From assembly GCA_937921595.1 (NCBI GenBank), contig CAKZTD010000239.1:18797-82796 (forward strand): 64,000 nt of DNA, read 5' to 3'. A program made the position numbers and the translations under genes. The stretch is from an uncultured Saprospiraceae bacterium (lineage in GTDB: Bacteria; Bacteroidota; Bacteroidia; Chitinophagales; Saprospiraceae). This document shows, piece after piece, positions 6,271 through 34,333 of this stretch (its first letter is position 1; the number at the start of each line of letters is the position of its first letter). Below the pieces are notes generated by a model. The model was not told where the DNA came from, did no database searches, and saw only the letters and a program-made list of their open reading frames with translations.

Positions 6271-6434
6271 AGAAGTTTTTTAAGTATGTGCTCTTAGGTT
6301 ATTTGTGAATGCTTGGTTTTTAAGACGAAACTCATTTTTATTTTCATAGCCATAGCTATGGGAATAAAAATAGCTGAAGTATTAAGAATCAATGATTTAC
6401 AAGTAATCCATAAGTTCATGCTTAAACAACTTTT
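6271..6434. repeat. 164-bp palindromic element, copy 1
   Basis: The element is an imperfect inverted repeat over its whole length, with ends AGAAGTTTTTTAAG and CTTAAACAACTTTT and the centre CATAGCCATAGCTATG. It aligns along its length with 19847-20011 (about 70% identity by eye) and shares the centre and length with 21413-21576. It sits 16 bp upstream of the DUF6089 start codon, probably in the 5' leader. The surrounding gap 6255-6617 otherwise holds a promoter and a short AAGTTAACAA hairpin at 6538-6607. Confidence 0.8.
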
Positions 6435-6470
6435 AAAGACTAATTAATAGCCTTTTCGTTCATGAGACCG

Positions 6471-6478
6471 CAAAGTTA
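6471..6478 (-). promoter_or_regulatory. -7 element TAACTTTG for the DUF6089 gene
   Basis: Read on the minus strand, 6478-6471 is TAACTTTG, a match to TAnnTTTG. It lies 217 bp upstream of the start at 6254, which would put the whole palindromic element into the leader. The -33 element is not clear. Confidence 0.4.
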
Positions 6479-6537
6479 GTATAAAACGGGCAAACTCGCC
6501 ACTTTGGTATGCGTTTTAAAGTTATCAAGCCAATAAC

Positions 6538-6607
6538 AAGACAAGTTAACAATTGACGAAATTTACTTAACAGACAAATGTTCAAATATTGTTTTGCTAA
6601 CTTGTTC
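6538..6607. repeat. AAGTTAGCAA-family inverted repeat
   Basis: GACAAGTTAACAA at the left end and TTGCTAACTTGTTC at the right end (6594-6607) form an imperfect inverted repeat. The words recur at 8351-8425 and 62190-62260. It lies just downstream of the stop of the minus-strand methyltransferase gene. Confidence 0.6.
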
Positions 6608-6617
6608 GTCTATGTTC

Positions 6618-7325
6618 CTATCCTTGAATCAAAAATATAGCCGGAACTTTATGCAATTCAGGAGTTTTACTCATCTTCCAATCTTTTATCGTCTTAGTTT
6701 TTACATATTCTTGAGGAGTAGCAAGATCAGCAGCGATACAAAACCGAGTATTTGGAGCTAATGTTTTCACTGCTTGTTCAATAAGTTTATTGTTACGATA
6801 AGGTGTTTCAATAAAAATCTGAGTTTGCTTATGCTTGATAGAAAGTGATTCTAATCTTTTTAAATCTTTAGTCAATTCAAAAGGTTTTGGAGACAAATAA
6901 CCTTGAAAAGCAAAGGATTGTCCATTCATACCCGAAGCCATCAAAGCCAAAAGAATAGAAGAAGGACCGACCAAAGGAACCACCTGGATACCTTGTTGAT
7001 GAGCAATTTTTACAATATCTGCTCCTGGATCAGCCACTCCAGGGCAACCTGCTTCCGATAAAAGGCCAATATCATGACCTGCTTTCGCTGGTGCTAAAAA
7101 ACTATTTAATTCTTCTGGAAGTGTTCGTTTATTGAGTTCAAAAAATTCAAGCTCACTAAATGCTTTGACAGGAGTAGTTGATTTTATAAAATGACGAGCC
7201 GTTTTAGCTCTTTCAGCGATAAAATAATCCAAACGATGTAATATTTCAATCACATAGGCTGGGATCGTCTGAAGACTATCTTCTCCAAGCGGGGTAGGGA
7301 TGAGGTATAATTTTCCTTTTGACAA
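6618..7325 (-). CDS. RsmI-type tetrapyrrole-methylase-fold SAM-dependent methyltransferase
   Basis: The protein is about 235 residues from the TTG at 7325 (MSKGKLYLIPTPLGE). It has the COG0313 features: N-terminal GKLYLIPTPLG, the catalytic-loop segment LLSEAGCPGVADPGADIV, VVPLVGPSSILLALMASG, and IFIETPYRNNKL. RsmI 2'-O-methylates C1402 of 16S rRNA; this short Bacteroidota form lacks the usual C-terminal extension, so the same target is likely but not proven. A longer frame to 7406 runs into a dispersed hairpin repeat (7384-7443) and has no family support, so I place the start at 7325. Confidence 0.85.
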   Translation of the reverse strand: MSKGKLYLIPTPLGEDSLQTIPAYVIEILHRLDYFIAERAKTARHFIKSTTPVKAFSELEFFELNKRTLPEELNSFLAPAKAGHDIGLLSEAGCPGVADPGADIVKIAHQQGIQVVPLVGPSSILLALMASGMNGQSFAFQGYLSPKPFELTKDLKRLESLSIKHKQTQIFIETPYRNNKLIEQAVKTLAPNTRFCIAADLATPQEYVKTKTIKDWKMSKTPELHKVPAIFLIQG

Positions 7326-7383
7326 GATGTTAGATGTTTTGTGGTGGCAAATTACAAATAAGAATGATGATATCAAAAGAGGG

Positions 7384-7443
7384 AAACGGCATTCAGTATT
7401 CGGCATTAGGAGAGTCCGAATGCCTAATGCTGAATGCCGTTTT
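7384..7443. repeat. GTATTCGG/CATTAGG-family hairpin repeat, copy 1
   Basis: AAACGGCATTCAG plus CATTAGG on the left pair with CCTAATG plus CTGAATGCCGTTT on the right, 20 bp in all, with a 7-nt left bulge TATTCGG that could pair with CCGAATG. Related hairpins lie at 11959-12003, 24454-24514 and 46229-46271. Confidence 0.75.
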
Positions 7444-7527
7444 ATTGTGACAAGGGACAGGTGTATTTAATTTCGTGAATTACTCAATTTATGTTATCCA
7501 TTCTTTAGCTTCTTCATTTCAAAGACT

Positions 7528-7535
7528 TATCTTTG
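7528..7535 (+). promoter_or_regulatory. -7 element TATCTTTG before scpA
   Basis: TATCTTTG ends 6 nt before the ATG at 7542, so the predicted transcript start is at or next to the start codon. This implies a leaderless or near-leaderless scpA mRNA. Confidence 0.55.
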
Positions 7536-7541
7536 CGACAT

Positions 7542-8342
7542 ATGAATGCTGGATATACTATAAAATTAGCGCAATTTGAAGGTCCTTTTGATCTACTTCT
7601 CTTTTTCATTGAAAGAGATGAATTAGATATACACGATATTCCAATATCTGTTATTGCCAATGATTTTTTAGATTATATCAAAGCAATGGAATCTTTGAAT
7701 ATTGACTTGGCCAGTGAATTTATTTTAGTAGCAGCGACCTTGATGAGAATCAAAGCCAAAATGTTGATTCCTCGCAAGCCAATTGATGAGGAAGGAAACG
7801 AAATAGATCCTCGGGATGAATTAGTAAGACGTCTAATAGAATACAAGCGTTACAAAAGTGTTCTGGAGGAAATGAGGCAATTGGAAGAGGACCGTTCTTT
7901 CAGATCTCCAAGAGGAAATACGGTCAGAGAATTAAAGAAGATTGCAGAACGTGCATTAGTGGATGTTGAATTGGAATCTTTGAATCTTTTTAAATTGATG
8001 CAAGCATTCGAACGAGTGTTGGCAAGAGTAGCAGATAAAAAACAAAAAACTGTTCACAAGGTATACGCCTATCGACATACTGTTCCGGGGCAACAGATTT
8101 ATATTTTGACTAGAGTACAGAAAGGAGCGAAGACCGATTTTAAAGCAATTTTTGGAAAATGTGAAGATCGTGTACATGCGATCGTTACCTTCCTTGCGCT
8201 TCTGGAATTACTCAATATGCAAAAGGTAAAATGTTTAACCGGAGGAATGGGAATCAATAATATTTGGTTGACTGTACCTGAAGAAGATGATCGTCCAGAT
8301 GTAGTACATGAGGACTCGATCAAAAAAGAGGAGGAGGAATAG
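7542..8342 (+). CDS. scpA: Segregation and condensation protein A
   Basis: The 266-residue protein starts with YTIKLAQFEGPFDLLLFFIERDELDIHDIPIS, the signature of the kleisin ScpA, which bridges SMC heads in chromosome condensation. The central part is helical and charged (EYKRYKSVLEEMRQLEEDRSF) and the C-terminus has the winged-helix segment AIVTFLALLELLNMQKV, followed by an acidic tail. I start at the ATG at 7542: an in-frame TTG at 7533 lies inside the promoter element. scpB is not adjacent. The gene converges with DUF5682 across an inverted repeat. Confidence 0.95.
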   Translation: MNAGYTIKLAQFEGPFDLLLFFIERDELDIHDIPISVIANDFLDYIKAMESLNIDLASEFILVAATLMRIKAKMLIPRKPIDEEGNEIDPRDELVRRLIEYKRYKSVLEEMRQLEEDRSFRSPRGNTVRELKKIAERALVDVELESLNLFKLMQAFERVLARVADKKQKTVHKVYAYRHTVPGQQIYILTRVQKGAKTDFKAIFGKCEDRVHAIVTFLALLELLNMQKVKCLTGGMGINNIWLTVPEEDDRPDVVHEDSIKKEEEE

Positions 8343-8350
8343 GGCAAGCC

Positions 8351-8425
8351 AACAAGTTGTTAAGTTAATAAGTTAGCAATTCGCTCTATTTATTGTTCAC
8401 TTATTAACTTAATACTTTGCTAACT
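8351..8425. repeat. AAGTTAATAAGT-family inverted repeat between convergent genes
   Basis: TTAAGTTAATAAGT (8360-8373) pairs perfectly with ACTTATTAACTTAA (8399-8412), and GTTAGCAA (8372-8379) can pair with TTGCTAAC (8418-8425). It probably works as a bidirectional terminator for scpA and the DUF5682 gene, although T tracts are weak. Confidence 0.65.
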
Positions 8426-10680
8426 TAATTCAGTCCCAACAACATCTTCGCCGTCGGCAATACCAGCTCAGCTCTTTCCATATTAAAAACTACTTCCATT
8501 TCATTTTCTGATTCTTTTAGTTTTCCGCGTTTGGCAAGGTCCATCATCTTTTGACGTTCCGGACCAGAGAACTCTGAAAAGGTTCTTCTTAATAAAGGCA
8601 GTAATTCTTGAAAAGTTGGAGACATAGATAAATCCTTGATCCATTCATCCAAGATATTCCAAAGAGCAGGTTGGTGAATCAGCAATAATCCGCTACCATA
8701 TAAAAAACCTTCGATCCATTGAGCAGCATCCAGTGATTCATTGGCAGTCGATAAAGCGTAGCGCATTTGTGTTACGGTTTCATTGATGTCAAAATATTCT
8801 TTGTCGAACAAAATTCGGATGGAACCACCACGAAGCATACCACTTACTTTTTTCGTAGTTGAAATTTTGTGAAGGGCTTGATACCAATCTTTTAAATGTT
8901 TTTCTTCGTTTAAAATATTAAGCGATTGATTGACTTCGAGCAGGCGATCAAAAACTTCCTTGCTGGCTTCTTCATTTATTGAGATACAAGCAGTCGGTAA
9001 ACCGATACAAATTCTTGGGATGATATTTTCCAAAACTTGTTCAATCGCCTGAATGTCCATTTGCCGAGTGCTCCCATAACGGATGGCATTCACTAAGGCT
9101 GGCAATGCTTCCATCAAATTGTGAACATCCTTAGTTAAAGCAGAAAGGTTTTTTAAATGTAAAACCAATTCTTTAACCGCATCAGGGAGATCAGCATTTA
9201 AGGTCGATTCGACTAGAGCAGTCAATTCAGGAAGTGTTTTTATTTCTTTGGCTTTCGAAACCACATAATTATTCGCTGCTGAAAAAACCGTGTTTCCCCA
9301 CATCCCCGCTTCAATGACATCAATGGCAAAATCAGGTAACCATTCCAATTTCCAGATTTCTTTAAAACTTCCGGTTACTCTTTTTGAGATTTTCTGTTGA
9401 ATGCCCCAGTGAATATCTAAGATGTTTAATCGGTGGAGCAGGTGACTTGCAAGGAGATGAGTAGGCTTTCGAAGATCTAATTCCTTGTCGATTGCTTCAG
9501 TAGATTTTTTTTCTTTAGAAAGGCGAGCTGACTTGATTGTTTTTTCTAAATCCTGTTGTAATGGAACAACCGGGATCTCTGGCGGAACAGATCCCATGAC
9601 ATCTCCGATGACTAATTTTTTATCAATCAAATCCATTTTTGAGTCATAACCTTCACAAAAAATCGAAACAGCAGCTTCGTACATTTCGTCCATTCCCGGA
9701 ACGGATAAGCCTCGCATGGTTGAAAGTGTTTCTGCTAATCGAACCGCTTCAATGACATGAGCAGAAGAAGCATCTAATTCTTCTTTTCGAAAAAGGCGAG
9801 CAACTTTCGTCATCCAATGAATGACAATATCTTTTCGATGTTGATATAATAATTGATAATAAGCAGGGGAAATCACGCCCGCTCGGTAACCACTTTGAAA
9901 AGACAGGCGATCAAAAGTCCAAGGCACCCAAGTAGATTTTGTATTGACTTTTTTTATGCCTTTTAAAATCGCATTATCTGTTTTCGCAGGAAAGTAATGT
10001 ACATTTTGTAAAACAGGAGCATGCCAGGCACCACAGATTACTGCAACATTTTTAAAGCCCTCTTTCCATGCTTTTCGAATACTGTTGCGCATAAAAGCTT
10101 CTCGCTGTTGTTCTCTTCTAGATTTTGGCGGAAGGTTTTCCCGCATAGATCCGATGAGTTCTATAATCGCAGGAAAGATAGCTTCTGGATTTTCTTCTTG
10201 CTCAAACATCACTTCCCACCATCGTTCGCTATCCGTGTAGCCAGATGCTTTTGCAGCATAAGCCATCGGATCGCGATGCATTAATTTTTCTTCTTCCGAA
10301 AGTTCAGGTTCTTTTTCTACCATCACCTCAATAGACATTTGGATCTTCTCTTTTGCCATGTTGTTCAATCCGAAATGCAAACTCTGAGGTAGATCCATAA
10401 ACTGAACTTGGATATTATTTTTTAAACAATATTTCATTGCCTGCCATTCCGGAGAAAAATCTGCGAAAGGAAAATAAGCAGCCTGCGTCAGATCTTTTGG
10501 ATTGTAAACGAGTAGTGCAACCGGTGGTTCTAGTTTGACATTGCGAACGTACTCAATCAGTTTATCAGCATCTGGTGGCCCTTCGATCAATACGATGTCT
10601 GGCTGAAGAGCCTGCATGGCATTCAACATACTTTTGGTAGATCCTGGTCCGTGATGTCGTATTCCGAAAATTGTTACCAT
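8425..10680 (-). CDS. DUF5682 family protein with TraB/Tiki-like N-terminal motifs
   Basis: This 751-residue soluble protein opens with MVTIFGIRHHGPGSTKS, has VLIEGPPDADKL at residues 30-41 and NVAVICGAWHAPVL at 211-224, preceded by a REAFMRNSIRKA helix. The full protein fits DUF5682. The order GxxH, then a Glu strand, then R..M..I, then G.wH resembles the TraB/PrgY-Tiki-ChaN-EreA fold; that link is my inference. The remaining 500 residues are mostly helical without known domains. It is last in the DUF5691 - MoxR - DUF5682 run, 79 bp after the ATPase. Such clusters elsewhere also carry a vWA gene and a SWIM-finger gene, not seen here. Function unknown. Confidence 0.85.
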   Translation of the reverse strand: MVTIFGIRHHGPGSTKSMLNAMQALQPDIVLIEGPPDADKLIEYVRNVKLEPPVALLVYNPKDLTQAAYFPFADFSPEWQAMKYCLKNNIQVQFMDLPQSLHFGLNNMAKEKIQMSIEVMVEKEPELSEEEKLMHRDPMAYAAKASGYTDSERWWEVMFEQEENPEAIFPAIIELIGSMRENLPPKSRREQQREAFMRNSIRKAWKEGFKNVAVICGAWHAPVLQNVHYFPAKTDNAILKGIKKVNTKSTWVPWTFDRLSFQSGYRAGVISPAYYQLLYQHRKDIVIHWMTKVARLFRKEELDASSAHVIEAVRLAETLSTMRGLSVPGMDEMYEAAVSIFCEGYDSKMDLIDKKLVIGDVMGSVPPEIPVVPLQQDLEKTIKSARLSKEKKSTEAIDKELDLRKPTHLLASHLLHRLNILDIHWGIQQKISKRVTGSFKEIWKLEWLPDFAIDVIEAGMWGNTVFSAANNYVVSKAKEIKTLPELTALVESTLNADLPDAVKELVLHLKNLSALTKDVHNLMEALPALVNAIRYGSTRQMDIQAIEQVLENIIPRICIGLPTACISINEEASKEVFDRLLEVNQSLNILNEEKHLKDWYQALHKISTTKKVSGMLRGGSIRILFDKEYFDINETVTQMRYALSTANESLDAAQWIEGFLYGSGLLLIHQPALWNILDEWIKDLSMSPTFQELLPLLRRTFSEFSGPERQKMMDLAKRGKLKESENEMEVVFNMERAELVLPTAKMLLGLN

Positions 10681-10695
10681 GTATTTACAGTGGTG

Positions 10696-10756
10696 AGAGG
10701 TGAGGAGTGGGGGTGAGGGCTTTTAGTTCACTCTTTACCTCTCACTCCTCACCTCT
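10696..10756. repeat. CCTCACT-family inverted repeat between MoxR and DUF5682 genes
   Basis: AGAGGTGAGGAGTG (10696-10709) and CACTCCTCACCTCT (10743-10756) form a perfect 14-bp stem. It fills most of the gap inside an apparent operon and could attenuate or process the transcript. No T tract follows in the direction of transcription. Confidence 0.75.
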
Positions 10757-10759
10757 GTT

Positions 10760-11860
10760 TTATAGTAATTCCTTACAAGCTCGATATAAATCCTTCCAAT
10801 CCTTCCGCTCTTTCACAATCGTCTCCAAGTATTCCTGCCAAATCATTTTATCTTGAATCGGATCTTTAACAATTGCTCCTGTGATACTCGCTGCCAAATC
10901 ATTCGCTTTTAAAGTACCATCACCAAAGTGAGCAGCTAGAGCTTGTCCACTATTGATTACGGAAATCGCTTCCGCTGTACTCAAGGTAGCGCTTGGTGTT
11001 TTTAATTTTGTTCGACCATCGGTTGTTGCTCCATTCCGTAATTCTCTAAAGATCATGACCAATCTTTGGATCTCTTTTACCGAAGCAGCTTTTGCAGGAA
11101 TATCAAGTGATGCACCAATTTTTGTAACTCTGGTTTGAACTATTTTTACTTCTTCATCTAGTGTTTTTGGAAGTGGCATCACCACGGTATTGAAACGTCG
11201 ACGCAGGGCACTCGATAATTCATTTACCCCTTTGTCTCGATCATTGGCTGTAGCTATAATATTAAAACCTGGTATTGCTTGTACTTCCATGCTCAACTCA
11301 GGAACAGGTAATATTTTTTCAGAAAGAACGGTGATCAAGGTGTCTTGTACATCAGAAGGAATCCGAGTTAATTCTTCCACTCTTGCTATCTTCCCATTTT
11401 GCATTGCTTTTAAAACAGGACTGGAAACAACGGCTTCCATTGAAGGACCTTTGGATAAAAGCTGAGCATAATTCCAACCATATCGTAGCGAGTCTTCATT
11501 CATACCTGCTGACCCTTGAACCAATAATTTAGAGTCGCCACTAATCGCTGCTGCTAAATGTTCCGAGACCCAAGTCTTTGCTGTTCCAGGAATACCGATA
11601 AGCAAAAGTGCTCGATCTGTAACTAAAGTCGCTACAGCAATTTCGATCAGTCTTCTGTTTCCAAAATACTTAGGTTCGATTTCCGTACCATCTTCGAGTG
11701 TTCCACCCATCAAATAAGTAACGACTGCCCAAGGAGATAAATTCCAATTCTTAGGTCGTTGGCGGTCATCAATTTTCTGTAGTTTCTTCAACTCGTCAGC
11801 ATATGCATCTTCCGCATGAGGACGTAATACTTGCGGTGTTTCTTTTTTCTTTTTTGCCAT
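10760..11860 (-). CDS. MoxR-type AAA+ ATPase of the DUF5691/DUF5682 cluster
   Basis: The 366-residue protein has a Walker A motif GIPGTAKT (89-96), a Walker B-like strand IARVEEL (158-164, with Glu162-Glu163), sensor 1 IIATANDRD (201-209) and an arginine-finger region ALRRRF (219-224). Walker B has VEE where most MoxR proteins have a DE pair, so the catalytic Glu is kept but the usual Asp is replaced. MoxR ATPases act as chaperones that remodel or insert metal into partner proteins, often with a vWA adaptor. The lysine-rich N-terminus is probably disordered. Neighbours are DUF5691 upstream and DUF5682 downstream. Confidence 0.88.
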   Translation of the reverse strand: MAKKKKETPQVLRPHAEDAYADELKKLQKIDDRQRPKNWNLSPWAVVTYLMGGTLEDGTEIEPKYFGNRRLIEIAVATLVTDRALLLIGIPGTAKTWVSEHLAAAISGDSKLLVQGSAGMNEDSLRYGWNYAQLLSKGPSMEAVVSSPVLKAMQNGKIARVEELTRIPSDVQDTLITVLSEKILPVPELSMEVQAIPGFNIIATANDRDKGVNELSSALRRRFNTVVMPLPKTLDEEVKIVQTRVTKIGASLDIPAKAASVKEIQRLVMIFRELRNGATTDGRTKLKTPSATLSTAEAISVINSGQALAAHFGDGTLKANDLAASITGAIVKDPIQDKMIWQEYLETIVKERKDWKDLYRACKELL

Positions 11861-11958
11861 GAAGTTTTGTTATATAATCAAGTCAACAAGCTAGTAATTT
11901 ATGCGAATCAGGGTTTAAAATATCGTTGTTTTTTTTGTTCAAAACTAAGAAAAACGAC

Positions 11959-12003
11959 ATTAGGTGTTCGGTGTTTGGGCTCTTCTAATGCCGAACACCT
12001 AAT
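11959..12003. repeat. GTATTCGG/CATTAGG-family hairpin repeat, copy 2
   Basis: ATTAGGTGTTCGG (11959-11971) and CCGAACACCTAAT (11991-12003) form a perfect 13-bp stem with a 19-nt loop that contains TCTTCTAATG. It sits in the 211-bp gap between the DUF5691 and MoxR genes. Confidence 0.8.
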
Positions 12004-12071
12004 ACCGCTAACGTTCAGACTCTAAGCTTATAGACATTTTGTAAATACCTTTCAAACCTAATTCGCATAAC

Positions 12072-13613
12072 TTATTCACTATTGCTTTCTAATTCTTGAA
12101 TGAAGTCTTTTCTAAATTTTAGAATCGATAAAAAAGTATCAATTTCTTTTTCCCAACTATTCCACGCATTGGAATGAGTAGACCAGCCTTTTGACAATTG
12201 ATCAAAAAGTTTTGGATTTGTATGTACTGCTGCTTTTTTTAGAATTGGCCTTAGGTGCCAGCCACTCCAGTAATGAGAAGTCTCTCCTGCAATCCATTTT
12301 TGCATGGCATGAATGAATGCCTTTGATAAAGTTTCTTGCCAAGGTAAATTTACATTTCTTAACAACAAAGACAAAGGAGATTCTTCATCAATTAAACTAT
12401 TTTTTTTATTTATGTGGATGATAGCAATTTTGTTAAAGACTTCTGGACTAATAATATTGAATAGCTGAAGTGGATTGAAATGTTGCCAACGTGCTTTTTG
12501 AAAATTGTCTAACCAAAAGAGTAGAATCTCCTCTGCCCAGCTCATGTTTTTATGCTGTATCGTTGCTTCTGTAACCGCTTGCAACATTAATTCTGACCAT
12601 TCAGATCGTACAAATAATTGTAAGGTTTCTCCGGTTTCTTTATTAAAATGTTTCTCCCAAAAATATGGAGGAACAATAGCTATCATCTGACCTAGGCGGC
12701 TCGCTTTTACACCTCCTTTGAACCAGCGAGTGGAAGGATCAATGCCGTCACGGATCATGTCATCGGTTAATTCCTCAGGAAGTTTAATACTCAGTTTTTC
12801 TTTTTTAGAAGAAGCTTTTGTTTTAAATTCCATCATCTCTACAATTTGTTCAAACATACGTTTACAAAGTCTGGATTGAGGAATACTCGCCAATGCTTTG
12901 GCTGCAGGTTTTCTTATTTCCTTTCGACTATTATCAAGGCACTCTTCTAGAAAGACTTCGTCTTCGTTAGAAGTATTAATTTCTAAAGTTTTAATAAACA
13001 GTGCTTTACTTTGAAGATCATCTTGATCCCAAGTGGATTTCAAAAGTTCAATGACTTCTTTAGAATTTTGACTTCGGAGATATTCTAATAATTGAACGCG
13101 TTGTGCTCTGGTTCCCGTTTCCCAAATGGAAATATCAGGTTGAAAAGAAAGGGTTTGCCATTCTGGATTTTGTTCAATTAGCCAATGACCTCTTTTTCCA
13201 ATTGCAGATTTGAGTATAGACCAAAATGCTGAATTAGTCAAAGACTGATCAAGGAGATTAGGGATGAAATCTAAAGGGATTAGTTTATTGTTTTTCGCAA
13301 GGTGGATAATGAATTCAGGAAGTAGGTCTTCGTATTTGCCTTTTAAAATAAGCTTGAGATGATTTCTGGATTTTTTAGAGCAGGCTATTCCTTTTTCTTT
13401 TGGAGATTTTTCAGGAATTGCTTTGTCCCATGATTTAGGAAAACCTCCGGTTTTTTGCATTAAAGAAAACAAGGCGGCCCCTTGTAATATTAAATGAGCT
13501 GGATCTTTTGAAGTGTCGATGCCAAGGTTTGAAAGTGCTGATTTACTCTCTTCAGAAAGCTTGGAGCGATCTGTTCCGATCAATGCAACTTTTACTAATT
13601 CGTTCCAGGGCAT
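12072..13613 (-). CDS. DUF5691 family protein
   Basis: The protein has about 513 residues from the ATG at 13613, giving MPWNELVKVALIGTDRSKL, which matches DUF5691 starts; eight further residues encoded upstream are probably not translated. It is soluble and helical, with HEAT-like repeats around residues 185-265 (RVQLLEYLRSQNSKEVIELL, FLEECLDNSRKEIRKPAAKAL). Family members are found next to MoxR ATPase and DUF5682 genes, as here. Its biochemical role is unknown; a scaffold or substrate-adaptor role is a guess from the repeats. The stop is followed by a 211-bp gap containing a hairpin repeat, so the operon may be broken there. Confidence 0.8.
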   Translation of the reverse strand: MPWNELVKVALIGTDRSKLSEESKSALSNLGIDTSKDPAHLILQGAALFSLMQKTGGFPKSWDKAIPEKSPKEKGIACSKKSRNHLKLILKGKYEDLLPEFIIHLAKNNKLIPLDFIPNLLDQSLTNSAFWSILKSAIGKRGHWLIEQNPEWQTLSFQPDISIWETGTRAQRVQLLEYLRSQNSKEVIELLKSTWDQDDLQSKALFIKTLEINTSNEDEVFLEECLDNSRKEIRKPAAKALASIPQSRLCKRMFEQIVEMMEFKTKASSKKEKLSIKLPEELTDDMIRDGIDPSTRWFKGGVKASRLGQMIAIVPPYFWEKHFNKETGETLQLFVRSEWSELMLQAVTEATIQHKNMSWAEEILLFWLDNFQKARWQHFNPLQLFNIISPEVFNKIAIIHINKKNSLIDEESPLSLLLRNVNLPWQETLSKAFIHAMQKWIAGETSHYWSGWHLRPILKKAAVHTNPKLFDQLSKGWSTHSNAWNSWEKEIDTFLSILKFRKDFIQELESNSE

Positions 13614-13675
13614 GAATATGATTTTATATTCATGCAAGGTAAAAAACTTAGAATAAAAAAGAGTAGAAAGAACAG

Positions 13676-14935
13676 CTAAGGTTTAATTTCGTAGCGAGTA
13701 GGGCGTGATAGATTTTTTGTTTTGTTATTTGTCGGATTGAATTTATTTTTTAAAAAATCTCTCATCGGTTTTTCAATATAATTATAAGAAAGGTAGGCTG
13801 CGAAAATCGTTGCGATAGTAAAAACAAGTAAACCAGTAATTGCCAACCAAAGAGGAGGTGCAGCAGGTGTGTTTACTGCAAAATCAATCGACGCATTTGC
13901 ATCAGTTAAAATATTTGCGTCAGCAGCTTTCCAATAACCTCTTAATATATAATAGCATAAGATGATGGGAAAATGAATCATATAAATAGAGTAAGAGATG
14001 TCGCCAAGGAATTGAAAACTTTTAAAACTTAACATCTTTTTGCCAAGGCCATTATTGTAAGCGACCATTAGTATGAATGGAGCAAATAGCAATATGGAAA
14101 CAATGTCCGGCATGATATTAAAGCTCCAGGAAACTATAAATAAAAATGCTAATCCAAAGAGAGCACTAGAACGAGAAAACCATGAATGACCCCAGTTTTT
14201 TTCGAAAGCTAGGTAAACGAGCATGCCTAATAGGAAGCCACCAATACAACGCATAAACCCTGAGCCGACCATGACATCTACGGTGTTGAGTAATTCCGAT
14301 CGCAATCCCATATAGCTTACTCTCTCTGCAAATTGTGCAGGTTGGAAATAAAACATAATGGAGAGATAAGCACCAATTATAAAAAGGATAGCACCGTATT
14401 TAAACAGTTGCCTCTTCCTTGTTAATATTAAAATGAAAAGAGGGAATAAAGCGTAAGTCCACCATTCTACACTGATAGACCAAGACGGCGTATTCCAAGT
14501 CGGTTCTGGAAAGAATCCGGTCGTTTGTAATAGAAATACGTTTGCTATAATTGCACTAGAGTCCAGGCTGAGTTGTAAAAAATGGGGGAGTGTATCAAAG
14601 ATCGCTGTATTCTTTATAAATAAAAATAAACCTACCATGATCAGTAGACTAGCCAAGTGTAAGGGATACAATCGCGCAAATCGGGCTAACATAAATTTCT
14701 TAAATGTTGGCCATTGAAAACCATTGCTAAATTTTTTCTGATAAACGTGGGTGATAATAAAACCACTCAACACAAAAAAGAAATCCACCATGATATACCA
14801 TTTGTTAATCAGGAAGCTTTGCTCCGGATCAACGACAGGCGTTATCAGTACTTGATAGTGGTATATAACCACCATAAGTGCTGCTATTCCTCGTAGAGGT
14901 GTAAGAGATGGTATGTAGTTTTGTCTCATGTACAT
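13676..14935 (-). CDS. Acyltransferase family 3 membrane protein (OafA/YrhL-like)
   Basis: The 419-residue protein has about ten membrane segments and the Acyltransferase-3 signatures: YIPSLTPLRGIAALMVVIYHY at the N-terminus (with the catalytic-type His), VDFFFVLSGFIITHVY, LARFARLYPLHLASL and WSISVEWWTYALFPLF. Such enzymes O-acetylate or acylate cell-surface polysaccharides. The true start may be the second ATG at 14929. It is the first of two surface-polysaccharide genes on this strand; the GT2 gene lies 212 bp upstream. Confidence 0.92.
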   Translation of the reverse strand: MYMRQNYIPSLTPLRGIAALMVVIYHYQVLITPVVDPEQSFLINKWYIMVDFFFVLSGFIITHVYQKKFSNGFQWPTFKKFMLARFARLYPLHLASLLIMVGLFLFIKNTAIFDTLPHFLQLSLDSSAIIANVFLLQTTGFFPEPTWNTPSWSISVEWWTYALFPLFILILTRKRQLFKYGAILFIIGAYLSIMFYFQPAQFAERVSYMGLRSELLNTVDVMVGSGFMRCIGGFLLGMLVYLAFEKNWGHSWFSRSSALFGLAFLFIVSWSFNIMPDIVSILLFAPFILMVAYNNGLGKKMLSFKSFQFLGDISYSIYMIHFPIILCYYILRGYWKAADANILTDANASIDFAVNTPAAPPLWLAITGLLVFTIATIFAAYLSYNYIEKPMRDFLKNKFNPTNNKTKNLSRPTRYEIKP

Positions 14936-15147
14936 AACTTGTCAAACAGGATAATACGTAATGTATCATCTGAAAATTAAATGGTGATTGGGACAGATGG
15001 TAATGGGGTTATCTGAACTTTTCGGATGAAATAATCCGAAAGATAGTGGTGTTGTGTAGGTTGTAAACTGATGCTCTAAATAATTAAAAAACAAGGAGCA
15101 TTAAGTTAACTAGTTTATCAAGTAGAAGAGTTATGCTTTGATATTGA

Positions 15148-16155
15148 TCAACAAAATACGAAAAAATCTTTGTTTTTCAATAACTCAAGCGTTTTCAACT
15201 GTTGGTTAATGCTAGTGATTGCTTCCTTCGCAGCTATTGCAATGATTAATTGGAAAGAGGTCGATTCTTGTAGTGAGTTGACTGACTCAATTTTTACATT
15301 ATAAATATCCTTTCCAATCTTCTTGGGATTGTCTGTAATCCAACGAAATGTAATGTTATGTTGATTTAAAATCTTTGCTATTTCTTTTCCTTTTCTCCCT
15401 GTTCCCCAAAGAATAATTTGTTTTTGAGGCGAATAATCAAGTGCTAAAAAGTGCCGTATTTTTAAATCAAAGAAATGTACATCCGCATAATTCGGGTCAT
15501 TTCGAGAGGTGCGAGCTTGATAATCTCTCCAGTGATGGAGAATTTCAGGGATGGTTTTTATTTTTAAATTATTTTTATAAAAACGAAAAACTAAGTCGTA
15601 ATCTTCTGGATATACGTCCAATTCGAAAGCTTCACATCTGTCCAGGTCTTCTCGGAATATCATCCAGCAAGGAGAAGGGATAACACATTCTTTGTAAATA
15701 TCGGAGAAGTTATTTTCCAGGAGACTTAACTCATTCAACCAGTTTTGGTATTTTATATATCCATTACCGAGTGTTTCTGCTGAAAAATAGCGAACCAAAC
15801 CTGTTGTAATATGACCAGGTCCTGCCTCTAATAATTTAGATTTTAATTTTTCTAATTTAGAAGAAGACATAACATCATCAGCGTCCATTCTACTGATCAA
15901 TTGTCCCTTGCTCTCTAGGTATGCTCTTCGTAAAGCGGGAATAATCCCATGTGCATTGTTTTTAAATACTTTAATTCTGCTATCCTTATCAGCGTAACTT
16001 TTTAAAATATTATAGCTCTGATCTGTAGAATAATCATCGATAGCGATCAATTCCCATTGTTTTTCCGACTGACCTAAGATAGAATCAAGGCACTCTTTCA
16101 AATAAGGAACGGCATTTTTGACAGGAAGAAGGACGGAAATAATAGGTTCAGACAT
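15148..16155 (-). CDS. Glycosyltransferase family 2 with a C-terminal Rossmann-like domain
   Basis: The 335-residue protein has an N-terminal GT-A domain (SVLLPVKNAVPYLKECLDSIL, LIAIDDYSTDQS, and the metal-binding region ISRMDADDVM) with the acceptor-side HHWRDY at about residues 205-210. After residue 240 a second domain starts with QIILWGTGRKGKEIAKIL, a dinucleotide-binding-like turn, followed by FRWITDNPKKIGK. This GT2 plus nucleotide-binding arrangement occurs in O-antigen and capsule loci. The donor and acceptor are unknown. The divergent promoter region for atpD lies upstream. Confidence 0.85.
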   Translation of the reverse strand: MSEPIISVLLPVKNAVPYLKECLDSILGQSEKQWELIAIDDYSTDQSYNILKSYADKDSRIKVFKNNAHGIIPALRRAYLESKGQLISRMDADDVMSSSKLEKLKSKLLEAGPGHITTGLVRYFSAETLGNGYIKYQNWLNELSLLENNFSDIYKECVIPSPCWMIFREDLDRCEAFELDVYPEDYDLVFRFYKNNLKIKTIPEILHHWRDYQARTSRNDPNYADVHFFDLKIRHFLALDYSPQKQIILWGTGRKGKEIAKILNQHNITFRWITDNPKKIGKDIYNVKIESVNSLQESTSFQLIIAIAAKEAITSINQQLKTLELLKNKDFFVFC

Positions 16156-16370
16156 AGATTGTATAATCGATGAAGCGATTTTATAGTATTGGAAATCAGG
16201 TTAAAATCAATAAAAACGCATAAAACGCAAGCTTTTGCCAAAGATATACATTTCAATTTTTTTAAAACAATGCCTTCAGAGCAAAACCTCAATTGTTGTT
16301 GATTTGTTTTTAAGATGAAAAAAAGATAATTATAGACCACCTTTTAGTTTTTCTAATAATAAAAAAGGTG

Positions 16371-16378
16371 TATCTTTG
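16371..16378 (+). promoter_or_regulatory. -7 element TATCTTTG of the atpDC operon
   Basis: TATCTTTG is followed by CAGCGTTTTTTAG, and the ATG of atpD is 53 nt downstream. The atpB promoter (56454-56461) has the same CTTTGCAGCG run, so the two ATP synthase operons have matching start regions. Confidence 0.6.
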
Positions 16379-16403
16379 CAGCGTTTTTTAGAAAACCTAT
16401 TAA

Positions 16404-17948
<1,545 letters not shown>

Positions 17949-17986
17949 TCAATTAAAAATAACAATAATTCAATTAAGAATTGATT

Positions 17987-18235
17987 ATGAATATTACTGT
18001 ATTAACACCAGATCAGGAAGTTTATCAAGGAGAAATTACTTCTGTAAAAGTACCTGGAATCGGTGGACAATTTGAAATCCTTAGGAATCACGCACCAATC
18101 GTTTCTGCACTTGCAGAAGGTCCAGTTCGATTGAAAATTAGTGGTGGTCAAGATATGAACTTCTCGATCGAGAAGGGATTTATTGAGGTTCTAAATAATG
18201 AAGTATCTTTATTAGTACAAGGATATAAAGAATAA
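17987..18235 (+). CDS. atpC: F1 ATP synthase subunit epsilon, short form
   Basis: The 82-residue protein starts MNITVLTPDQEVYQGEITSV and corresponds to the N-terminal beta-sandwich only (GIGGQFEILRNHAPIVSAL, IEKGFIEVLNNEVSLLVQ). The C-terminal two-helix domain of longer epsilon subunits (about 130 residues), which inhibits ATP hydrolysis in other bacteria, is absent. The stop codon is followed by the operon terminator, so this is a genuine short form, common in Bacteroidota. I chose ATG at 17987 rather than the in-frame TTG six bases earlier. Confidence 0.95.
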   Translation: MNITVLTPDQEVYQGEITSVKVPGIGGQFEILRNHAPIVSALAEGPVRLKISGGQDMNFSIEKGFIEVLNNEVSLLVQGYKE

Positions 18236-18260
18236 AAACACTTAAGTCATTTTGCTTTTT

Positions 18261-18297
18261 GGGGGATAAAAACGTAGTTTTTTATCCCCCTTTTTTT
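18261..18297 (+). terminator. Strong Rho-independent terminator of atpDC
   Basis: GGGGGATAAAAA (18261-18272) pairs perfectly with TTTTTATCCCCC (18279-18290) around a 6-nt loop and is followed by seven T. It is one of the strongest terminators in the window and isolates atpDC. Confidence 0.95.
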
Positions 18298-18385
18298 ATT
18301 TGTTTTTTTGAGTCTATCGGTCTATGGCAGGTAAACTATTTCCTTCGTTTGATTGGTCTAAGAACTATAAATTACAATGAGAAAA

Positions 18386-18411
18386 GCCCTTTCCGCCGTG
18401 ACAGAAAGGGC
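18386..18411 (-). terminator. Terminator of the aminopeptidase P gene
   Basis: GCCCTTTC (18386-18393) and GAAAGGGC (18404-18411) form an 8-bp stem. Read on the minus strand it is followed by TTTTC, and it lies 44 bp after the stop codon of the minus-strand gene. Confidence 0.8.
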
Positions 18412-18454
18412 CTGATCATATAAAAATGACTAAAGACTATACGAGTTTGACTTT

Positions 18455-19756
18455 TTAACTCAAAACATTCGCATTCATAATCTCTTCAATAGCTTCAGCT
18501 TCTAAGGGGATGTTTTCCATTAAATCATAAGGACCATTATCGGTTACTAAAACATCATTCTCTAATCGAATACCAATATTCTCTTGAGGTATATATATGC
18601 CTGGTTCAACGGTGAAGACCATTCCTGCTTGTATAGGAGCATATCGATTGCTTAGGTCATGCACATCTAAACCAAGGTGGTGAGAAGTGCCATGCATAAA
18701 GTATTTTTTATAAGCGGGATAATCTTTGTTTTGATTTTTAATATCTGTTTTATCAAGGAGTCCTAATTGGAGTAATTCACTTTCCATCATTCTACCGACT
18801 TCCTTATGGTATTCTTCGATCATAGTACCAGGGACTAACATCTGAGTCGCTTCTTTCATGACCGTTAAAACGGAATTGTAAACTGCTTTCTGCCTTGGAG
18901 AAAACTGTCCGTTTACAGGAATAGATCGCGTTAAGTCAGCAGCATAATTTGCATACTCCGCTCCGAAATCCAGCAATAAGATATCACCATCATTACAGAT
19001 TTTATTATTCTCTCCGTAGTGAAGAACACAAGCGTTTTTTCCACTTGCGACTATTGGAGGATAAGCATGTCCACTTGCTCGGTTTCTTACAAATTCATGG
19101 ATGATCTCTGCTTCTACCTCATATTCCATTACACCTGGTCGTACAAATTCCAAAACTCTATGAAATGCTTTTTCTGTAATATTACAGGCTTGTTGGATCA
19201 ATTCAATTTCATGTTTTGATTTGAGCATTGCCATCTTTCTAAGGATGGGTTGTGATCTGTGATATTGATGAGCAGGGTAGCGGTTTTGAAGCTGTTTAGT
19301 GGCTCTTAAATCCCTAGACTGGATCTCCGATACATATCGATCGTTTTCATTATTGTTGACATAAATATTTTCTGCTAAAAGAATCAGCTCATGAAGAATA
19401 TTATCCATTTCATCTAGCCAATATATTTTTTCAATTCCTGAAATGGCGCTAGCTTCTTCCTTGGTAAATTTATGACCTTCCCAAGTTGCAATAAATTGAT
19501 CTGTCTTTTTTATGAAAGCGACTTCTTGAAAACCTTCTTTAATACAATCTGGAAAAAGAATTAAAACCGTTTCTTCTTGGTCAAGACCACAGAGACTAAA
19601 TAAGGAAGAATTTTGTCGAAAAGGATGATATTGATCCCCGTTGCGAGGCATCATATCATTAGATTGGAAAATAGCTATTGAGTCCGATTTTAATTGACTA
19701 GTAAATCGCCTCCTGTTTAACCGGAATAGATCCGGGTTAATCGGTGCATATTTCAT
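18455..19756 (-). CDS. pepP: Xaa-Pro aminopeptidase (aminopeptidase P family, M24B)
   Basis: The 433-residue protein has the AMP_N domain followed by a pita-bread metallopeptidase domain. The two-metal ligands are all visible: Asp263 (LLDFGAEY), Asp274 (AADLTRS), His359 (HGTSHHLGLDVHD), Glu384 (FTVEPGIY) and Glu399 (GIRLENDV). It would release N-terminal residues preceding proline in the cytoplasm. It is monocistronic, bounded by its own terminator. A 165-bp palindromic element lies about 90 bp upstream of the start codon. Confidence 0.95.
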   Translation of the reverse strand: MKYAPINPDLFRLNRRRFTSQLKSDSIAIFQSNDMMPRNGDQYHPFRQNSSLFSLCGLDQEETVLILFPDCIKEGFQEVAFIKKTDQFIATWEGHKFTKEEASAISGIEKIYWLDEMDNILHELILLAENIYVNNNENDRYVSEIQSRDLRATKQLQNRYPAHQYHRSQPILRKMAMLKSKHEIELIQQACNITEKAFHRVLEFVRPGVMEYEVEAEIIHEFVRNRASGHAYPPIVASGKNACVLHYGENNKICNDGDILLLDFGAEYANYAADLTRSIPVNGQFSPRQKAVYNSVLTVMKEATQMLVPGTMIEEYHKEVGRMMESELLQLGLLDKTDIKNQNKDYPAYKKYFMHGTSHHLGLDVHDLSNRYAPIQAGMVFTVEPGIYIPQENIGIRLENDVLVTDNGPYDLMENIPLEAEAIEEIMNANVLS

Positions 19757-19846
19757 GGTGTTGTTTTTTGTTTAGTGTTTGGAGATTTTATTGATAAAAC
19801 CAATTATCGATAATTTCTTCAAACCACTTTGTGTATGTTCAGTGTC

Positions 19847-20011
19847 AGAAGTTGTTCAAGAATATGTTCTGAAATTAGTTGTAAGTGCTTGATTTCTAGA
19901 ACGAAGCTAGTTTTTCTTTTCGTAGCTGTAGCTACGGGAATAAAAACAGCTGAAGTTATTAGGAATCAATGACTTGTAAATAATTCATCAATTTATTTTT
20001 GAACAACTTCT
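19847..20011. repeat. 165-bp palindromic element with perfect 13-bp terminal inverted repeats, copy 2
   Basis: AGAAGTTGTTCAA (19847-19859) and TTGAACAACTTCT (19999-20011) are perfect inverted repeats. Inner arms continue the pairing to the centre CGTAGCTGTAGCTACG. The shared stretch around the centre, including GGGAATAAAAA and AGCTGAAG, is almost identical in copy 1 (6271-6434). No target-site duplication is obvious and no transposase gene is present. Confidence 0.85.
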
Positions 20012-20214
20012 CAATGTAATACGCTCACTCCTAACTGCTCTATTGGTTTGTGTAATAGTAATAAAGAATGACAATAAACAGTCAAGATTTTTATTTAGAT
20101 AACCGGGAGGTATTGTGGTTTTCTCGTGGATAAGCTTATTACAATACTATTAAAAAATGTTTGTATTGGCAAGGGAGTATAGGATTGTATAAATGCATTA
20201 AAATTCAATGTAAT

Positions 20215-20245
20215 AGTCAAAGTATTGATAATCAATATTTTGACT
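20215..20245. repeat. 31-bp palindrome downstream of the YkvA gene
   Basis: AGTCAAAGTATTGAT and ATCAATATTTTGACT flank one central base; 14 of 15 positions pair. It lies 34 bp beyond the stop codon of the minus-strand gene, without a clear T tract, so it could end transcription or bind a protein. Confidence 0.6.
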
Positions 20246-20279
20246 GCTCTCAAGGGGAATGTTAAAGTTTAAAACTTAC

Positions 20280-20666
20280 TTAGAGCTGTTTATCTATTAC
20301 TTTCAAATCGTCTTCATTCAAATCTTTAAACCATTTTTTTAATTGGGCTCGTGCATTTAATCTTACTTCATTATTGACATAACAAGCAATAGTAACTAGT
20401 CCAAAACTCAATACGCCGATATCATCTGTGTATCCGATGATAGGCGTCAAATCGGGTAGTGCGTCGATAGGCGATATAAAATAACCTAGGGTACCGATGA
20501 TCACATTTTTTGCCCAAGAAGGGGTGTCGCTTCTCTTGTAAGCATAGAAAAGTAATAGTACAGTATAAATAGTTTGTTGACCAGCTTTGGTTGCAAACTT
20601 TTTAATCTTATTCCACATACCCAACTCACTAAAGCCCTTTGCATGCTTTTTGAAAGGATTCTTCAT
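20280..20666 (-). CDS. YkvA family (DUF1232) membrane protein
   Basis: The 128-residue protein contains the DUF1232 core WAKNVIIGTLGYFISPIDALPDLTPIIGYTDDIGVLSFGL, which spans two short hydrophobic segments around the conserved SPIDxLPD motif. An amphipathic basic N-terminus and a charged C-terminus flank it. The role of this widespread family is not established. The gene is isolated, divergent from exbD, with about 200 bp between their start codons. Confidence 0.88.
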   Translation of the reverse strand: MKNPFKKHAKGFSELGMWNKIKKFATKAGQQTIYTVLLLFYAYKRSDTPSWAKNVIIGTLGYFISPIDALPDLTPIIGYTDDIGVLSFGLVTIACYVNNEVRLNARAQLKKWFKDLNEDDLKVIDKQL

Positions 20667-20864
20667 TTATCTAATTATTGTTTCATAACCAATTTATAAA
20701 AAAATAAACGCTTGTCAAATATTTTAAGATTTCCGTAGGACAATCTTCGACGAATCAAATATGAAACTCAAGCTATCAATCCACCAAAAATACCTCTTAA
20801 CCACATCTTAGTAGTAATCCGTCGTCGAAAACAGATTTATTCATTTTTTCTAAAAAATAAATTT

Positions 20865-21413
20865 ATGACAAATTCTAGAAAACGACGAAAACACGACCAG
20901 TCTGTAAATGCAGGATCAATGGCAGATATTGCCTTTCTATTGCTTATCTTTTTTTTGGTAACCACGACTATTTTAAATGAAACAGGAATCAGAGTTGTTC
21001 TTCCGGTTTGGGATGAAAATCCAATATCAACTCCTCTTCCTCCTCGAAATGTATTAAACATCTTAGTCAATTCTAGTAATAAATTACTCATCGAGAAAGA
21101 ACTAGCAGAAGTAGGAACGATCAAAGAAAGAACTAAAGAATTTATAATGAATCCTCAGGGCTTGAGTACCTTGCCTGCTAGTCCTAAAAAAGCAGTGGTG
21201 TCTTTACAAAATGACAGAGGTACTTCTTATCAAACTTACATCGAAGTCTATAATGAAGTAAAGGCAGCGTACAATGAATTGTGGGATGTTGCAGCTAAGA
21301 GACGCTTCGGAAAAAGTTATGCAGATTTAAATAGAGAAGATAAACAAGATGTGAGGAAAGATATTCCTTTAGTGATTTCGGAAGCAAATCCTACGGATCA
21401 TCAAATGAAATAA
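20865..21413 (+). CDS. ExbD/TolR-family biopolymer transporter subunit
   Basis: The 182-residue protein has a basic N-terminus, one membrane segment (about 20-38) containing the conserved proton-path aspartate Asp21 in SMADIAFLLLIFFLVTTTI, and a periplasmic domain. ExbD couples the inner-membrane proton gradient to TonB-dependent transport together with ExbB. No exbB or tonB is adjacent, which is unusual since they normally form one operon. The periplasmic domain is longer than the usual 140-residue protein. A 164-bp palindromic element begins at the stop codon. Confidence 0.85.
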   Translation: MTNSRKRRKHDQSVNAGSMADIAFLLLIFFLVTTTILNETGIRVVLPVWDENPISTPLPPRNVLNILVNSSNKLLIEKELAEVGTIKERTKEFIMNPQGLSTLPASPKKAVVSLQNDRGTSYQTYIEVYNEVKAAYNELWDVAAKRRFGKSYADLNREDKQDVRKDIPLVISEANPTDHQMK

Positions 21414-21576
21414 GAGCATTTTGGGTAATTGGTCTTTGAGTCGAAAAGCAGTAATTTTTTGATTAGACGAGGGTTAAAAACCGGAGTTTAGCCGTAGTTA
21501 AATGAGGATTTTTAGAACGAAGTATTATCAAAAAAGTGCGGTTTGCAGACCGATTACTAAACTCCCAACATGCTCT
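21413..21576. repeat. 164-bp palindromic element, copy 3 (diverged arms)
   Basis: AGAGCATTTTGGG (21413-21425) and CCCAACATGCTCT (21564-21576) are the ends; TAATTGGTC pairs with GACCGATTA and TTTTTTGAT with ATCAAAAAA further in. The centre TTTAGCCGTAGTTAAA matches the core of copies 1 and 2, and the length is the same. The arm sequences differ, so membership rests on core, length and architecture. It begins on the last base of the exbD stop codon. Confidence 0.65.
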
Positions 21577-21591
21577 AAAAGAAAGAACAAA

Positions 21592-34238: not shown

Positions 34239-34262
34239 AATCCAAATAGGATTTACACCATA

Positions 34263-34325
34263 AAAAAGTCATTGAATATTAGTCATTCCTTTCCGAAGAG
34301 AATCACTAATATCCAATGACTTTTT
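34263..34325 (+). terminator. Long hairpin terminator of the DUF5723 gene
   Basis: AAAAAGTCATTG and CAATGACTTTTT form the outer 12 bp; ATATTAGT and ACTAATAT continue the stem inside after one mismatch. A T run ends it. The stem is symmetrical and could also act in the other direction. Confidence 0.85.
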
Positions 34326-34333
34326 CAATTTAT

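Follow-up and report, generated by a model that had tools for sequence, protein, structure and literature searches.

The locus considered here raises the question of whether three intergenic palindromes, located in a 64,000-nucleotide (nt) stretch of DNA from an uncultured Saprospiraceae bacterium (assembly GCA_937921595.1, contig CAKZTD010000239.1; the whole stretch is hereafter termed the window), are mobile elements or structured RNAs. An earlier note, made from the letters alone, had proposed that they could be MITE-like or structured RNAs, and had suggested that their structure is under selection. Its observation, dispersed repeats folding end to end, was confirmed, and its interpretation is supported. 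The elements are miniature inverted-repeat transposable elements (MITEs), probably moved by an IS5-family transposase, and their pairing is kept in spreading lineages.

The three elements (copies 1 to 3, Table 1) are inverted repeats over their whole length. The full-length hairpins have a minimum free energy of -62 kcal/mol (z -10.0) for copy 1, -66.2 kcal/mol (z -9.56) for copy 2 and -54.3 kcal/mol (z -5.78) for copy 3, the last computed with nine flanking bases on each side, and in each case none of 200 shuffles was as good. The arms of copy 3, which might have paired no better than shuffled sequence, therefore pair far better. The coordinates proposed earlier were correct within 1-2 bases, and the lengths are indeed nearly equal (162, 163 and 162 bp). 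The common central core was also recovered: TAGCYRTAGYTA with up to one mismatch occurs eight times in the window, where 1.24 occurrences were expected (none of 100 shuffles did as well), and its three perfect matches are exactly the three elements. This shared 12-mer is the apical stem-loop; conservation extends beyond it, reaching the same level around two internal loops further down the stem. As had been noticed, copies 1 and 2 align over their full length, with 77% identity; the G+C content of the three copies is 28-35% (modelled stretch). One detail had to be corrected: copy 2 has perfect terminal repeats of 12 bp rather than 13, the thirteenth pair being part of a flanking TCA / TCA duplication.

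Copies 1 and 2 define a family, F1 (162-163 bp, ends GAAGTTGTTYAA). Copy 3 does keep the core and the pairing, as claimed, but it belongs to a second family of the same superfamily, F2 (162 bp, ends GAGCATGTT). The genome that holds the window (8.04 Mb in 465 contigs; own genome) was searched by BLAST, and many further copies were found. Copy 2 gave 57 rows, corresponding to 22 distinct full-length places with 77-100% identity; copy 3 gave 15 rows, seven of them full-length, and an eighth copy (L039) was recognised on reading the flanks. The elements are thus short, dispersed and multicopy (22 + 8 full-length copies), carry no transposase open reading frame (ORF) and end in terminal inverted repeats (12 bp and perfect in copy 2), all of which is expected of MITEs. 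Eight shortened hairpins of 46-90 bp with the same tips (up to two mismatches per tip) were present in the loci read.

A covariance model, R1, was built from 43 sequences of the same kind. It detects F2 weakly (copy 3 with 24.9 bits, E 0.011; L033 with 18.9 bits, E 0.23), and no other F2 element was found at E ≤5 among 11 F2 loci. The link between F1 and F2 rests on elements of another genome, G122, and on a shared internal loop of two bases facing three (2x3 loop; see below). The G122 elements L330 and L334 are detected by R1 at 46.7 and 44.7 bits, match an F2 element (L031) by 73-79% in both arms and contain the F1-type core GACAAAGCTCATTT; because they bridge both families, F1 and F2 were taken as the two extremes of a single range. 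In G142 there is a third form (L275, L277 and L281), which has tips GAGCCTGTAAAA and different arms with the same core, and L275 and L277 are flanked by TGA and TCA duplications, as judged by eye. In the own genome, L114 (contig C90) has an F1 left tip followed within ~50 bp by an F2-like right tip, and is possibly a mosaic of the two. L247 (G169, contig C2), which was recruited by R1, is a single strong hairpin (-103 kcal/mol) with quite different ends and arms, and it may be unrelated to the element.

Target duplications and empty sites, both of which the earlier note had suggested looking for, were found. Among 23 F1 elements (22 from the own genome and one from a congener), 12 are flanked by exact 3-bp direct repeats, where re-pairing of the flanks gave a mean of 2.1 and none of 5000 shuffles did as well. 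A second set, public elements in metagenome-assembled genomes found by a pattern scan, comprised 59 loci, of which 14 without a recognisable end and four with a short flank were removed. Here 17 of 41 elements have exact 3-bp repeats (shuffle mean 2.2; 0/5000 shuffles), and some of the 41 have misplaced ends (lengths such as -903, 211 and 215), an error expected mainly to weaken the signal. One insertion is apparently present in both sets, as L045 and as L142. Repeats of 2 bp did not exceed the shuffles, and none of at least 4 bp was seen. Six of seven F2 elements have TAA on both sides and L039 has TTA on both sides; because nearly all F2 flanks are TAA, the shuffle test is uninformative for this family. 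The insertion point of copy 3 coincides exactly with the TAA stop codon of the ORF upstream of it, and the duplication preserves the stop.

The genes next to copies 2 and 3 were located in four congeners (57-81% protein identity). At the copy 2 site, the three congeners that keep both genes (3/3 element-free) have gaps of 290, 275 and 325 bp, against 523 bp here, and the longest BLAST pieces within these gaps are 14, 23 and 15 bp; the piece in L391, which lies within an arm motif, could be a relic of the element. At the copy 3 site, the gap in the single testable genome (G004, L392) measures 87 bp, which is 165 bp (162 + 3) less than the 252 bp here; that congener gap also contains partial matches of 20 and 30 bp. 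Model R1 found no element in these four congener loci.

The tips of F1 match an insertion sequence (IS) of the own genome. This IS (G000:C379:83-1022) is intact, has ends GAAGTTGTTTAAAAAT / ATTTTAAAACAACTTC and encodes a 274-amino acid IS5-type transposase that matches NF033580 with 136.6 bits (cut-off 110), the sole match to NF033580 in that genome, as well as Pfam DUF4096, DDE_Tnp_4 and DDE_Tnp_1. Tips shared with an autonomous IS were thus found for F1, and so far not for copy 3 (F2). At 20 further places with lone F1-like ends no transposase-like ORF was noticed by eye, no family search having been made.

Transposases related to that of C379 occur in 13 of 199 Saprospiraceae genomes. R1 matches were present in 10 of these 13 and in 65 of the 186 IS-negative genomes (Fisher p 0.0036), the two samples of 199 being taken as identical since the listed handles agree. 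In G169 the IS (12 matches, 930 bp) is flanked by a 3-bp duplication in eight of ten copies read, so that the duplication length is equal in IS and MITE. Furthermore, the 16-bp tips of an element are closer to those of the IS in its own genome than to those of the IS in other genomes: in eight genomes, with one tip type chosen per genome (other types in G109 and G122 left out) and with the exclusion of G017 and G169, in which element and IS do not match, the permutation fraction was 0.0016 by best and 0.0007 by mean identity. Examples are AAAGTT in G076, AATAAT in G120, and GTTTTTAAATGACTTC (IS) with GTTTTTAAATCACTTC (element) in G112.

The pairing suggested by copy 3 to be conserved was borne out by covariation within each family and across families. 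In 21 own-genome F1 copies there were 40 compensated cells against 4.5 expected, and in eight F2 copies 33 against 5.1; the compensated double changes include transversions, e.g., T-A to A-T. When 82 elements were aligned to R1 and tested against the fold of one of them, L133, 90.7% of the cells were paired, a figure that leans towards pairing because L133 is itself a row and the alignment was fitted to a like-built model. There were 414 double-change cells against 106 ± 9 in shuffles, and controls with slid partners were 40-52% paired (maximum 52.3%).

With sequences weighted over 16 clusters, the best conserved positions include an unpaired GC facing UG and the A of an RA facing GNN, as well as paired positions beside these loops and in the apical stem. 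The columns of the GC/TG loop (14, 15, 111 and 112) have a weighted identity of 0.87-0.93. The 2x3 loop was scanned in up to three members per cluster; 10 of 18 lineage clusters, including that of copy 3, have it at a distance of 22-24 nt from the apex, though not in every member. Its closing pair (29-94) alternates, being C-G in 59 and U-A in 18 of the 82 rows. The mispairs within the stems were also counted. G.U exceeds A.C in 14 of the 16 untied clusters (of 18; sign p 0.004; cluster means 97.5 G.T and 55.7 A.C), a count that is not fully independent because the clusters share ancestry, and this excess points to a single folded strand, although it is not significant among recent changes (see below). 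The raw asymmetry over 118 elements, 676 G.T against 278 A.C, is inflated by shared ancestry.

Besides the shared ancestry and the lean towards pairing just mentioned, several observations weigh against the view that these are IS5-mobilised MITEs with a maintained fold. No exact duplication flanks 11 of the 23 and 24 of the 41 copies, copy 1 included (ATA / TAA). In the own genome, F1 ends were found on a single intact IS; another protein match, on C277, is a short piece with stops, and the C379 IS, framed in the way used for the MITEs, lacks an exact 3-bp duplication (AAT / ATA). No IS with F2 ends was found in the 20 stretches read, part of 72 places, and the transposases occur in only 13 of 199 genomes, the elements in 75. 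By eye, the MITE interior is not IS-derived beyond ~20 bp from the tip, and derivation of the body by internal deletion was not seen; such an origin is not required of all MITEs. The 2x3 loop was not found in 8 of the 18 clusters and is rare (1/16) in one G142 cluster, and loops of the 2x3 type number 14 in the core zone and 7 outside it. Finally, two clusters show the opposite of the G.U excess, namely one of G142 (2.3 against 3.4) and F2_L032 (6 against 8).

In the mechanism that we propose, an IS5-family DDE transposase of the NF033580 type would recognise terminal inverted repeats of 12-16 bp and move the element by a DNA route, with duplication of 3 bp of the target. The body differs from a simple deletion derivative in being one ~162-nt hairpin. 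Its pairing is maintained in spreading lineages, and two of its internal loops are conserved: GC opposite UG, in lineages of the F1 type, and RA opposite GNN, at ~22 nt from the apex. Tips vary by lineage and tend to match the IS of the genome concerned, while the folded core stays. The fold may be needed for propagation, e.g., for joining the ends in single-stranded DNA, or as RNA, and single insertions would then decay with little sign of host selection. The data show that the elements are mobile, make 3-bp duplications, match an IS in their F1 tips and are conserved in structure. We infer that an NF033580-type transposase does the moving; a related transposase presumably serves F2, and propagation may require the fold. 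We read the data as structure being kept in spreading lineages, and loosely, if at all, in single copies.

R1 matches 75 of the 199 Saprospiraceae genomes and 52 of 112 genera (E ≤0.001), and four of 395 phylum-sampled genomes (E ≤0.0001), two within Saprospiraceae and two outside. The latter two (L349 and L350, in G435 and G576) are single element-like hairpins whose tips are of the GAAGT or GGAGT type, found in another family of the same class; they look like real elements, which suggests that the element occurs rarely, or was transferred, outside Saprospiraceae. Pattern matches in Algoriphagus, Bernardetia and Flexibacter were rejected, as they lacked the left end (L129 and L147, which also did not fold as the element) or both ends (L151 and L153). 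A further-reaching version of our reading takes the folded core as the true unit of heredity: hairpin shape, loops and a near-fixed length would be kept across ~50 genera, ends would be swapped to fit the transposases, and one-strand folding (RNA or single-stranded DNA) would be required for spread. We regard this version as possible, if somewhat doubtful.

Without any selection on the fold, the palindrome could also be kept, and compensatory changes arise, by hairpin-templated (quasipalindrome) mutation and by correction of one arm from the other. Many compensated changes do occur in one copy only (F1, 13 of 21 event types; F2, 10 of 19), the copies are intergenic with no clear host role, and recent minority changes in six families are without significant strand asymmetry (97 G.T against 77 A.C, p = 0.15). 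However, correction should erase mismatched loops first, and the GC/UG and RA/GNN loops persist in many lineages while the pair beside them has changed from C-G to U-A. Neither does strand-neutral correction predict that G.U exceeds A.C in most clusters. We consider this explanation rather unlikely as a whole; it is a serious rival for the pairing, and less so for the loops.

We then weighed whether the elements are host-functional structured RNAs (a 3′ untranslated region stabiliser, an RNase III site or a regulator) that merely spread by means of IS tips. Conserved internal loops and a G.U excess are typical of folded RNA, and transcripts of ERIC and NEMIS/Correia elements are reported, in the parts of the sources consulted, to affect neighbouring mRNAs (PMC2229807, PMC10969869). 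The context of 190 elements was surveyed, with ORFs of at least 270 bases taken by simple calling, and 188 elements are not contained in an ORF. Against such a role, 51 lie in divergent and 16 in convergent gaps, so that there is no preference for 3′ ends. Orientation relative to tandem flanking genes is 58 against 40 (p = 0.085), which is not significant; a strand-specific role suggested by 38 '--' against 15 '++' among the first 109 F1-like loci did not hold at 190 loci and was dropped. The copy 2 and copy 3 sites are not common to the congeners tested. Rfam 15 gave no match at gathering score in the window or in seven loci, and none of seven weak matches lies on an element. A host RNA function is therefore distinctly unlikely. 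Of the two natures proposed in the earlier note, the MITE-like one stood, with its 3-bp duplications, copy number, empty sites and IS-matched ends; a host function as RNA was not supported, as neither orientation bias nor strand asymmetry was significant.

A single-strand DNA transposon akin to REPIN/RAYT or IS200/IS605 elements, with the hairpin itself as substrate, is highly improbable. Target duplications of a fixed 3 bp would not be expected of such elements, yet the duplications are exact and 3 bp long here, and the F1 tips match a DDE-type IS. In favour of this reading, the full-length hairpin, strand-specific internal loops and compensatory changes resemble REPINs as described in the consulted part of PMC3116915.

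Table 1. Positions of the palindromic elements and their parts in the window; internal-loop positions were read from the element sequences.
Feature	Position	Strand	Remarks
Copy 1	6272-6433	+	family F1, 162 bp, canonical orientation; model R1 107 bits
Copy 2	19848-20010	+	family F1, 163 bp; model R1 112.6 bits
Copy 3	21414-21575	+	sister family F2, 162 bp; model R1 24.9 bits, E 0.011
Perfect terminal inverted repeat, copy 2			12 bp; GAAGTTGTTCAA / TTGAACAACTTC
Ends, copy 3			GAGCATTTTGGG / CCCAACATGCTC
Left target duplication, copy 2	19845-19847		TCA
Right target duplication, copy 2	20011-20013		TCA
Left target duplication, copy 3	21411-21413		TAA; also stop codon of ORF 20865-21413
Right target duplication, copy 3	21576-21578		TAA
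Apical stem-loop core, copy 1	6347-6358	+	
Apical stem-loop core, copy 2	19923-19934	+	
Apical stem-loop core, copy 3	21489-21500	+	
2x3 internal loop, copy 1	6327-6378	+	GA (6327-6328) facing GAA (6376-6378)
2x3 internal loop, copy 2	19903-19954	+	GA (19903-19904) facing GAA (19952-19954)
2x3 internal loop, copy 3	21469-21521	+	GA (21469-21470) facing GAA (21519-21521); 22 nt from apex; F2_L030
Second conserved internal loop, copy 1	6311-6394	+	GC (6311-6312) facing TG (6393-6394)
Second conserved internal loop, copy 2	19887-19971	+	GC (19887-19888) facing TG (19970-19971), within GCTTG...CAATG

As we see it, MITEs of bacteria tend to be regarded as relics that have the right tips. In the present case, one fold can be traced by a covariance model across an entire bacterial family while tips and arms turn over. 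This provides a candidate structured family without an Rfam match, and a natural data set on the question of whether a palindromic MITE has its hairpin through selection for mobility, through selection for harmlessness or through mutation alone. Among the matches listed in the open-licence PMC literature, titles and abstract beginnings gave no description of this family or of Saprospiraceae MITEs.

Hairpin MITEs such as ERIC, YPAL and NEMIS, among others, have been described (PMC2229807, PMC2267715, PMC10969869), and an IS982-tipped MITE is known from Cardinium (PMC9769881); these and the following comparisons draw on parts of the cited sources. One similar system is YPAL, or RU-2, of Yersinia, a ~168-bp intergenic palindromic mobile repeat predicted to fold; unlike the elements studied here, it is not A+T-rich, has internal inverted repeats and makes duplications of 3 to 26 bp (PMC2229807, PMC2267715). 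The present elements have terminal repeats, 28-35% G+C and a 3-bp duplication, and we claim no sequence relation. The enterobacterial ERIC (IRU) is likewise a short intergenic hairpin MITE, with reported effects on mRNA (PMC2229807), but it has 127 bp and TA termini, as opposed to 162-163 bp and GAAG or GAGC termini. REPINs, from Pseudomonas and others, share the miniature mobile hairpin and the compensatory changes (PMC3116915), but they are REP doublets linked to RAYT tyrosine transposases, whereas IS5-type tips and 3-bp duplications are found here. BrickBuilt and MITEPgRS of Porphyromonas gingivalis are also MITEs of Bacteroidota whose terminal inverted repeats match IS5-family elements of their own genome; BrickBuilt differs in its 23-nt tandem repeats and duplications of unequal length, and the consulted part of the source describes no core hairpin conserved across genera for these IS5-tipped MITEs (PMC4596501).

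Some minor observations were made along the way. In the window, a 67-bp palindrome on the minus strand (34261-34327) is matched by R1 with 31.5 bits (E 0.0004); it may be a shortened relative or a chance match. Several F1 elements carry inserts of ~75-80 nt. These follow GAAATGA in L022 (own genome, contig C247), L136, L137, L145 and L178, follow AAAATGA in L141, and are placed elsewhere in L149; a 3′ end like GAACCGCGAAAGCGGATGGGT is common to several of them. The ATGA insertion site recalls what we take to be the targets of IscB/HEARO. HEARO was nevertheless rejected for these inserts, as no Rfam match reached the gathering score and no HEARO match was obtained at E ≤1 in three loci. Small palindromic repeats are also nested in the F1 copies L123, L148, L019, L021, L167 and L176, at or near the conserved internal loop.

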